Origin: Candidatus Aenigmatarchaeota archaeon
GTDB lineage: Archaea > Aenigmatarchaeota > Aenigmatarchaeia > QMZP01
DNA length: 8,367 nt
Reading direction: 5' to 3'
Assembly: GCA_003663225.1 (NCBI GenBank)
Contig: QMZP01000027.1
Location: 1 to 8,367, forward strand
Made by a program: the position numbers and the translations under genes. A model generated the notes under the pieces. That model did not search any database. It saw only the letters and a list, made by a program, of their open reading frames with translations, and was not told the DNA's origin. This document shows, one piece after another, positions 2,300 through 5,583 of the stretch (position 1 is the stretch's first letter; every line of letters starts with the position of its first letter).

Positions 2300-3447
2300 T
2301 CACTTAACGAAATCGACGCCAAGAACGTTCTCTATCTCTTTCTGCTTCTCGACAGTGTATGTCTTGTCAGGTCCATATATCTGAGATGACTTGACACCAG
2401 TCACTATCAGCATCGCTCTTATGGTGTCGCCGAGTTCCTTGATTATCTGAGCGCCCCATATGACCTTCGCATCCTCGTTTATCTTAGCGCTGACGCCTTC
2501 GACAATTTCCTGGCATTCCTTTATTGTAATGTCTGCTCCCCCTGAGACGTTCACGAGCGCGCCTATTGCGCCTTCTATGTCAACGTCAAGCAGCGGGTTG
2601 TTAAGGGCTTTCTCAACGGATTCCATTGCCCTGTTCTCCGTGTCGGACTCACCCATTCCTATCATGGCGAGGCCGCCGGATCCCATGACTGCCCTAATGT
2701 CTGCAAAGTCTAGATTCACTAGTCCGGGCTTAGTGATTAGCTCAGCTATGCCCTTTACTGCATTTACTAAGATCTCATCCGCCACCTTAAAGGCGGTAGT
2801 GACTGATACGTCTGGTACGATTTCCAAAAGCTTGTCGTTCGGGATTACTATCAAAGTGTCCACGGCGTTCTCAAGGTTCTCAAGGCCTTCCTGTGCGTTC
2901 TTCATTCTCTGCCTGCCTTCCATGGTGAAAGGCAATGTCACTATGCCAACGGTTAAACAGCCAAGTTTCTTGGCAATGTCTGCAACTATTGGTGCTGCGC
3001 CGGTTCCTGTGCCGCCTCCGAGTCCGCAGTCGATGAAGACCATGTCAGCCCCCTCTAGGGCAAGACGGCTTAATTCGGTTGGATAAAGCCGTCAAGCCAT
3101 TCTAGGGCTTTCTTAACCTCTTCCTTCGACTCTTTGGCTGATTCCTGTCCCACTTTGGGGTCCGCTCCTGCTCCGAGCCCGTTGGTTATCTCCTTTCCAA
3201 TGAGCACCTTGTGATCGGCGTCAGTGTAAAGGAGGTCCTGAGCATCGGTGTTTACTGCTAACGTTTCCGCGCCTACTATTCCTACCTGCATTAGTCGTGA
3301 GATCGTGTTGCCTCCGGCGCCACCTACGCCTACAACCTTGATCTCGGCTTTTCTAGATTCTAGGATTTTCCTGAGCTCTTCGTCTGTTCCTGTTCCAGTA
3401 TTGGAAATCGCTTCTGCTTGGTTCTTGGTTTCAAAAGTTTCTTCCAT
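2300..3447 (-). CDS. ftsZ: Cell-division GTPase FtsZ, interrupted by a 47-nt putative intron (3053-3099)
   Basis: FtsZ polymerises with GTP into the division ring. Exon 1 is 3447-3100 (116 codons) and exon 2 is 3052-2300 (250 codons plus stop); joined they encode 366 residues, a normal archaeal FtsZ length. Visible are the [11 protein letters not shown] nucleotide loop (residues 38-48), NTDAQDL (66-72), [18 protein letters not shown] (90-107), the tubulin signature GGGTGTG (128-134) and the T7 loop [11 protein letters not shown] (229-239). Without removal of the 47 nt, the first part ends in-frame at TAA 3072-3070 after divergent residues WLDGFIQPN, and the second part lacks a start. Everything outside the interruption is intact and highly conserved, which argues against a decayed gene. 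The start is ATG 3447 because GGGAGG (3459-3454) lies 6 nt upstream; an in-frame GTG at 3453 overlaps that site. Whether the organism has another FtsZ is not visible. Confidence 0.93.
3053..3099 (-). other. Putative bulge-helix-bulge (BHB) mRNA intron in ftsZ
   Basis: Read on the ftsZ strand, exon 1 ends GCC CTA GAA (3108-3100) and exon 2 begins GGG GCT GAC (3052-3044). Pairing: outer helix AGCC (3109-3106) with GGCT (3050-3047); central 4-bp helix CTAG (3105-3102) with CTAG (3058-3055); 5' bulge AAT (3101-3099); 3' bulge AGGG (3054-3051); inner helix GGC (3098-3096) with GCC (3061-3059), a TT/TT internal loop, then the 8-bp stem GACGGCTT (3093-3086) with AAGCCGTC (3071-3064). Each bulge follows the central helix in the 5'-to-3' direction, the topology cut by archaeal tRNA-splicing endonuclease. 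Cutting between the 2nd and 3rd nt of each bulge releases exactly 47 nt and joins Glu116 to Gly117 in frame. The 3' bulge is 4 nt rather than the canonical 3. Splicing itself is inferred. Confidence 0.8.
3054..3108 (-). repeat. 8-bp direct repeat GCCCTAGA flanking 39 nt inside ftsZ
   Basis: On the ftsZ strand GCCCTAGA occurs at 3108-3101 and again at 3061-3054, exactly 47 nt apart. The repeat contains the palindrome CTAG whose two copies form the central helix of the proposed BHB. It could also be read as a target-site duplication left by a 39-nt insertion carrying an 8-bp inverted repeat, which may be how the intron arose. Confidence 0.85.
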
Positions 3448-3490
3448 ATCCACCCTCCCAATTTTAACAGCCGGGCAAAGGCCGGCTTTG
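3448..3490 (-). promoter_or_regulatory. Structured 5' leader of ftsZ with Shine-Dalgarno
   Basis: From the predicted transcription start near 3490 to ATG 3447 the leader is about 43 nt. It contains a hairpin GCCGG (3486-3482) with CCGGC (3474-3470) around a 7-nt loop, and then GGGAGGTG (3459-3452), a near-complete match to the archaeal anti-Shine-Dalgarno. Most other genes in this window look leaderless, so ftsZ is initiated differently. The hairpin does not cover the Shine-Dalgarno. Confidence 0.5.
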
Positions 3491-5166: not shown

Positions 5167-5583
5167 ATGAAGCCTTTCTGTGAAGTGGTTGCGCTCGAGC
5201 TGCTCCCTGCCGTCAGGGCCATGGTAGCAAGGAAGCTCACGGGCAAGTATGGCATATCACAAAGGAGGGCAGCATACCTCCTTGGAGTAAGCCAGCCTGC
5301 CATATCGCAATACAGGAAGGACCTGAGGGGATACAAGTCGAAGCTTTTCAAGAACAATCCAAAGCTGAGCGGTATGGTTGATGCAATGGCAGAGTGTATG
5401 GCATCAGGGGACGTTGACAGCCCGGAAGCCACGCTGTCATTCTGCGAGCTGTGCAAGGAGATACGGTTCTCGGGTGCCGGTTGCGAAACCCATCATAACA
5501 GGTACCAGTCACTGGCTTCTTGTAGTGTATGCATGGACAACAAGGAATTCTACGGCAAACATCCCCCAAAGGCACGCAAGTAG
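5167..5583 (+). CDS. Predicted transcriptional regulator: XRE-like HTH with C-terminal Cys cluster (COG2522-like)
   Basis: This 138-residue cytoplasmic DNA-binding protein has an N-terminal CEVVALELLPAVRAMVARKL segment (residues 5-24) and an HTH at about 28-52 (KYGISQRRAAYLLGVSQPAI then SQYRKDLRG). A C-terminal region carries CELC (93-96), Cys106, His109/His110 and CSVC (119-122). The CxxC pairs could bind zinc or an Fe-S cluster; the ligand is unknown. The HTH and its N-terminal helix resemble the archaeal regulator family COG2522. ATG 5167 starts exactly at the family-like MKPFCEVV and fits the promoter; the frame also runs upstream to 4906 through the nuclease gene, which is a shadow. Its stop is directly abutted by the stop of the convergent dipeptidase gene, with no intergenic base. 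Confidence 0.85.
   Translation: MKPFCEVVALELLPAVRAMVARKLTGKYGISQRRAAYLLGVSQPAISQYRKDLRGYKSKLFKNNPKLSGMVDAMAECMASGDVDSPEATLSFCELCKEIRFSGAGCETHHNRYQSLASCSVCMDNKEFYGKHPPKARK

Follow-up and report, generated by a model that had tools for sequence, protein, structure and literature searches.

ftsZ and its neighbouring genes in the window

The stretch of DNA analysed here (8,367 nt, referred to as the window) is the contig C27 of a genome assembly of 942 kb in 165 contigs, which is 63% complete. On its plus strand, the window begins with a large part of AcnX (positions 1-519), truncated by the contig start, and this is followed in the same row by the AcnX swivel part (525-923), a Nudix protein (920-1387) and a protein of the amino-acid-kinase family (1408-2223). 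We take this row of genes to be the mevalonate-pathway set of archaea, in which isopentenyl phosphate kinase takes part. Another plus-strand reading frame (5167-5583) encodes 138 residues lacking a Pfam match, whose N-terminal part is helix-turn-helix-like and whose C-terminal part is cysteine-rich, as judged by eye. The gene of main interest is an ftsZ on the minus strand (3447..2300), the closest ftsZ matches of which are from Candidatus Aenigmatarchaeota, a DPANN lineage.

The ftsZ gene is intact apart from 47 nt (3053-3099) holding an in-frame TAA, and a straight-through reading runs into a stop within these 47 nt. An earlier reading of this DNA (the first-pass annotation) had described an otherwise intact FtsZ that is broken in this manner, in which the excision of exactly 47 nt joins GAA to GGG at a point 11 residues ahead of the tubulin signature. 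On recomputation all of these particulars were reproduced, the signature being GGGTGTG, and the gene without 3053-3099 encodes 368 residues with no gap. The best match of the joined protein in the PDB is 1fsz (E 5e-127), presumably the FtsZ of Methanocaldococcus jannaschii, and the alignment has no gap across the junction. In all of the 110 other ftsZ loci that were compared, some of which represent one gene taken from two collections, the sequence at the junction is uninterrupted. The features of the locus are listed in Table 1.

Table 1. Positions of the parts of the interrupted ftsZ gene and of the predicted bulge-helix-bulge (BHB) motif in the window
Feature	Position	Strand	Details
ftsZ start	ATG 3447	-	agrees with the MEETF start of relatives; alternative GTG at 3453
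ftsZ exon 1	3100..3447	-	116 codons, ATGGAAGAAACT...GCCCTAGAA; PF00091 positions 1-108
Predicted intron, 47 nt	3053..3099	-	TAA 3072-3070; frame shifted, 47 mod 3 = 2
ftsZ exon 2	2300..3052	-	GGGGCTGACATG...AAGTGA; remaining GTPase domain and FtsZ C-terminal domain
Direct repeat GCCCTAGA, 8 nt, exon copy	3101..3108	-	
Direct repeat GCCCTAGA, 8 nt, intron copy	3054..3061	-	
Outer helix	AGCC 3109-3106 / GGCT 3050-3047	-	4 bp
Central helix	CTAG 3105-3102 / CTAG 3058-3055	-	4 bp
5' bulge AA/T	3101-3099	-	predicted 5' cut 3100/3099, after second base
3' bulge AG/GG	3054-3051	-	4 nt, canonical plus 1; predicted 3' cut 3053/3052
Inner helix	GGC 3098-3096 / GCC 3061-3059	-	3 bp, then 2x2 loop and 8-bp stem
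Intron stem-loop	3064..3093	-	stem GACGGCTT 3093-3086 / AAGCCGTC 3071-3064, 8 bp

Due to the presence of GCCCTAGA at both ends of the insert, there are ten registers in which 47 nt can be excised, all of which lead to one and the same protein. A repeat of this kind is not odd for an intron, since according to the accessible text of PMC11782384 all 213 introns examined there have direct repeats at their borders or close to them. An 8-nt flanking repeat also suits slippage, bypass or a target-site duplication. One other reading is thus a recent insertion into a dead or dying copy of ftsZ, either of a mobile element of small size or of filler from repair, with 8 nt duplicated. Another ftsZ may sit in the missing part of the genome, as this reading would have it; a second ftsZ was not found, and because the genome is only 63% complete it could have been missed. 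Against such an insertion, to which we give a very small chance, both exons are otherwise intact, and the 30-nt insert core (3064..3093) is present as a single copy in the genome stretches searched, with up to 3 mismatches allowed. Group I and group II introns and inteins were set aside, as 47 nt is, by general knowledge, too short for any of them.

The bulge-helix-bulge motif at the insert borders

The BHB motif that the first-pass annotation had proposed for the borders of the insert is found at its positions, base for base in each element. In the test employed for this motif, a 4-bp central helix, at least 3 bp in each of the other two helices and bulges of 3-4 nt were asked for, and among the ten registers giving the same protein the motif is present solely in the one originally proposed. 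The strict 3-4-3 form is not found in the window's insert, and the motif is of a relaxed form with a 4-nt 3' bulge. The cuts given in Table 1 follow the rule of cleavage after the second base of each bulge, as stated for cbf5 in the accessible part of PMC2738675.

When the insert was shuffled, a BHB was seen at the junction by chance in 35 of 20,000 mononucleotide and likewise 35 of 20,000 dinucleotide shuffles, and at any one of the ten registers in 36 and 39, respectively, of 20,000 shuffles each. Further, out of 16,494 spans of 47 nt on both strands of the window, a BHB was found in 2, the ftsZ site being counted among them. In energy terms, the minimum-energy fold of a 127-nt exon-intron-exon piece without constraint (-47.2 kcal/mol) has a longer outer helix and leaves CTAG/CTAG unpaired, and the fold constrained to the BHB (-43.6 kcal/mol) is 3.6 weaker than this free fold. 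A 96-nt region gave a folding z of -2.55, with 2 of 200 shuffles equal or better, and there too the central helix is unpaired. As modelled, the BHB of the ftsZ insert is not the thermodynamic optimum.

A gap of this structure could also be crossed by the ribosome itself, which would detach from the mRNA where exon 1 ends and resume 47 nt further on at a matching codon, aided by GCCCTAGA and the stem. Translational bypass normally requires matched take-off and landing codons, as is the case in gene 60 of phage T4, and in the window GCC, CTA and GA(A/G) are present where the ribosome would take off and again where it would land, and a hairpin and a stop lie in between. Against bypass, exactly one register carries the BHB, and in one of the relatives described below the landing codon cannot match; on balance we consider it quite improbable.

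Broken and unbroken relatives of ftsZ

Pieces of FtsZ broken at the same position were searched for with the 127-residue N-terminal reading frame as the query, with proteins of about 70-223 aa being admitted and whole FtsZ proteins thus left out. Of the 173 matches to N-terminal FtsZ pieces obtained, 120 are listed, and among those listed five metagenome proteins, viz. P0122, P0123, P0124, P0125 and P0126, diverge at exactly the codon where the window's own piece (P0121) does. Past the break, their tails read WLDGL in P0122 and P0124, WFDGL in P0123, WPEAC in P0126 and RMDAD in P0125, and the first residue of the tail is W (TGG) in 5 of the 6 broken pieces when P0121 is included. The GG of this TGG would open the inner helix. 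The five proteins are 86-93% identical to the window in the last 100 exon residues and hence cannot be a single sequence recovered several times. Among the matches listed, P0122 is also present in 4 contigs, which come from 3 source collections, and P0121 in 2 contigs. The unfinished state of the 165-contig genome to which the window belongs would allow an assembly or sequencing artefact, but the same-site breaks in five other sequences and this repeated recovery from different contigs reduce the probability of such an error to a negligible level. That five other sequences are broken at the same codon, with differing tails, also speaks against the recent insertion in a dying gene that was considered above.

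The breaks in these relatives and their fit to the BHB are deduced from protein letters, as is the insert length for P0125 and P0126. In the latter two proteins the insert is free of stops and the reading runs on in a shifted frame, and when the shift is undone a 38-nt insert and an intact exon 2 are obtained. The residues compatible with exon 2 number 22 of 22 in P0125 and 20 of 21 in P0126, where the single misfit is the F of MVFI, and in each case none of 2000 shuffled tails was as good. At the junction of P0126 a canonical 3-4-3 BHB can form, its outer helix being 5 bp long, and 4 of 100 shuffled inserts allow one as well. For P0125 a BHB with helices of at least 3 bp was impossible under every codon choice tried, the best BHB found for it lying one base upstream, with 4 nt in the 5' bulge and an inner helix of 2 bp, and judged from these protein letters its poor BHB is the weakest point of the comparison with relatives. 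The two proteins are also informative in regard to translational bypass: P0125 allows GAA as the landing codon, but P0126 admits no codon other than AAT or GAT for landing in the frame of exon 2, as against GAA/GAG at take-off, and due to this mismatch codon matching is not a feature shared by the broken genes.

The breaks at this codon were sought with a text pattern in 246 proteins, of which 101 fit it (92 canonical, 6 broken, P0121 among them, and 3 near-canonical), the remaining 145 being outside the pattern. Two other proteins, P0129 and P0137 (KKVIDAKLP, IKIWVDYIIYIYL), depart from FtsZ a few codons ahead of the intron site, which could reflect a sequencing error, a contig end or another break. 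The protein P0241 (247 aa, on a 1006-nt contig) is a piece of FtsZ whose MVF start corresponds to the first ATG in exon 2, and it may represent the downstream half of a further ftsZ interrupted by an intron.

This start is also relevant to the possibility that exons 1 and 2 are translated apart and the two chains assemble into a split protein. In the window an ORF (2300-3043) begins at ATG 3043, with AGAGGGGG / GAGG shortly upstream, and P0241, from a metagenome, begins at the same MVF. However, the inserts of P0125 and P0126 are stop-free and run out of frame into exon 2, the split would lie inside the GTPase domain, shortly ahead of the GGGTGTG loop, and the BHB as well as the TGG past the cut (5 of 6) are left unexplained. 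A split protein is, for these reasons, also given little credence.

The presence or absence of the insert among the ftsZ genes of close relatives, which the first-pass annotation had named as a means of checking the intron, was found to be mixed: in addition to the five relatives that are broken, as read from their protein letters, the insert is lacking in the whole proteins P0001-P0007. These have 89-93 of 100 exon residues identical to the window and are as close to it as the insert-bearing pieces. When 46 exon-1 sequences were placed in a tree, all 6 insert-bearing rows came together with 7 insert-free rows in a group of 13 with support 93/79, but inside this group the order is not resolved and the insert-bearing rows are not grouped together; the tree is based on about 116 exon residues, which are too few to settle the monophyly of these rows. 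The fewest changes of the insert state on this tree are 5, a value as low being seen in 113 of 500 shuffles, and the starred branches force 1. A single gain followed by losses is possible on these sequences, and the mix of the two states within a shallow FtsZ group would fit gain and losses similar to those in cbf5.

Within the family, exon 1 has a match in 22 of the 24 genomes, and in 18 of them the match is close (73-85% identical). Among these 18 the insert break is seen in the window's own alone, and the match in G002 ends at the contig end. In two genomes of the same family, G010 and G021 (genus g11; 78% and 74% complete), a tubulin/FtsZ match is absent and the exon-1 search was also negative; such a match is present in the remaining 59 of the 61 genomes searched. 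The pattern of the exon-intron borders was matched by 5 of 156 genomes of the phylum, of which the window's is the only one known to be in ftsZ, and no match to it was found in viral contigs.

Splicing enzymes of the host genome and comparison with known systems

A search for other broken genes in the host genome was made with the reading frames of a relative (G020), 1040 of which (at least 90 aa, six frames), from 400 kb of its 1,051 kb, were searched against 413 of the 942 kb (44%) of the host genome. Matches were obtained for 155 of these 1040 ORFs, and breaks were seen with two FtsZ paralogue queries alone, with exactly 47 nt extra in each case. This search for other ORF breaks, also proposed by the first-pass annotation, thus recovered ftsZ and nothing else, indicating that in the examined part the break in ftsZ does not belong to a common type of error and that introns of this sort are not numerous; the lack of any other break in 155 comparable ORFs is a further point against an artefact. 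This comparison replaced a scan for the motif combined with a codon score over 258 kb, as that scan had missed ftsZ itself. The scan yielded 24 candidate rows, and the 12 inspected by eye were ends of neighbouring genes joined together.

The host genome encodes a splicing endonuclease EndA of 398 aa (on L003), whose residues 8-398 align with the EndA of ARMAN-2 (4fz2/9w2k; E 3.2e-102). By eye, the alignment indicates that the catalytic residues Y236, H251 and K282 are kept, as are R275 and W384 and the loop residues Y160 and K161. In the accessible part of a 2025 structure paper (PMC12397907), the loop residues of the ARMAN-type EndA are tied to its broad substrate range. From its sequence, the host EndA looks like an enzyme of the ARMAN type (epsilon-2). 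RtcB is also encoded in the genome as a whole protein of 468 aa.

With introns allowed, ARAGORN made 14 calls of intron-bearing tRNAs in the genome stretches searched. Two of these, tRNA-Asp (21-nt intron) and tRNA-Lys (87-nt intron), have a 3-4-3 BHB and lie side by side with a 5S rRNA in L126 (1196-1661), and in the other 12 the 3-4-3 BHB is not found at ARAGORN's junctions; some of these 12 calls may be spurious. In L129 (1533-1613, plus strand), an 81-nt match to the tmRNA family (51.1 bits, cut-off 47) overlies a sub-threshold tRNA match and is probably not genuine.

Taken together, the 47 nt in ftsZ are, with high probability, a tRNA-type mRNA intron that is predicted from sequence to be spliced by EndA. 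The message of ftsZ would fold into the relaxed BHB, the ARMAN-type (epsilon-2) EndA would cut each bulge past its second base, and RtcB would ligate GAA to GGG to give the full-length FtsZ. The cleavage, the ligation and the making of FtsZ from the spliced message are steps that we infer, and ftsZ would then be, in the wording of the first-pass annotation, an "essential" division gene that "depends on" tRNA-type splicing. This annotation's reading of the insert in terms of tRNA-type splicing is supported by the breaks at the same site in five relatives, the intact exon 2 in two of them, the genes for EndA and RtcB and the lack of any other break, all of which argue against an assembly error or a decayed gene. 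It is rather unlikely, though conceivable, that splicing serves to control division, with FtsZ being made only when there is spare capacity of EndA and RtcB, and that the intron is gained and lost by reverse splicing within the lineage. If true, division in this one lineage of DPANN archaea would be tied to the maturation of tRNA through the main division gene.

As regards known systems, bypass in gene 60 of phage T4 likewise involves an out-of-frame gap of about 50 nt, with a stem, a stop and matched codons, all as in the window's copy. However, P0126 cannot have matched codons and a BHB is not expected of bypass. The introns of archaeal tRNAs, processed by EndA and RtcB, share the class of motif with the ftsZ insert, and the host genome holds two canonical cases, but the insert is a frame-breaking part of a coding message and not of a tRNA. 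In protein genes, an intron in the pre-mRNA of cbf5 of Crenarchaeota was reportedly described by Watanabe in 2002.

As described in the accessible text of Yokobori 2009 (PMC2738675), the cbf5 introns of Crenarchaeota are similar to the ftsZ insert in that they are bounded by a BHB, interrupt a conserved protein gene and follow the same cut rule, and also in their lineage-shared site, variable interior and patchy presence, the patchiness in cbf5 being read as losses; most of the newly studied species there have an unconventional BHB. The present, predicted case differs from cbf5 in the gene (ftsZ), in the lineage (Aenigmatarchaeota, DPANN) and in the endonuclease, which is of the epsilon-2 type instead of a dimer of heterodimers. 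A 2020 paper (PMC7714728) states, in its accessible part, that besides its own case in a 5'-UTR cbf5 was the sole archaeal mRNA BHB intron reported until then; EndA cuts an mRNA there, as it is predicted to do in ftsZ, whereas the ftsZ insert breaks a reading frame. No further BHB intron in a protein gene is seen in the accessible parts of PMC4090602, PMC3655853 and PMC12558985, and a report of an intron in ftsZ was not found in the literature searched, which covers neither bioRxiv preprints nor the majority of subscription papers. Within this literature, the likely intron in ftsZ is new in regard to its gene and lineage, its kind being already known from cbf5. Six pieces of FtsZ are catalogued as short proteins, as gene callers cut such genes, and the ftsZ message is a candidate natural mRNA substrate for the ARMAN-type EndA. 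Next to cbf5, the ftsZ intron would be the second case in a protein gene, from another branch of archaea and with an epsilon-2 enzyme, and with its presence and absence among close relatives it would lend itself to the study of how introns are gained and lost in the coding genes of archaea.
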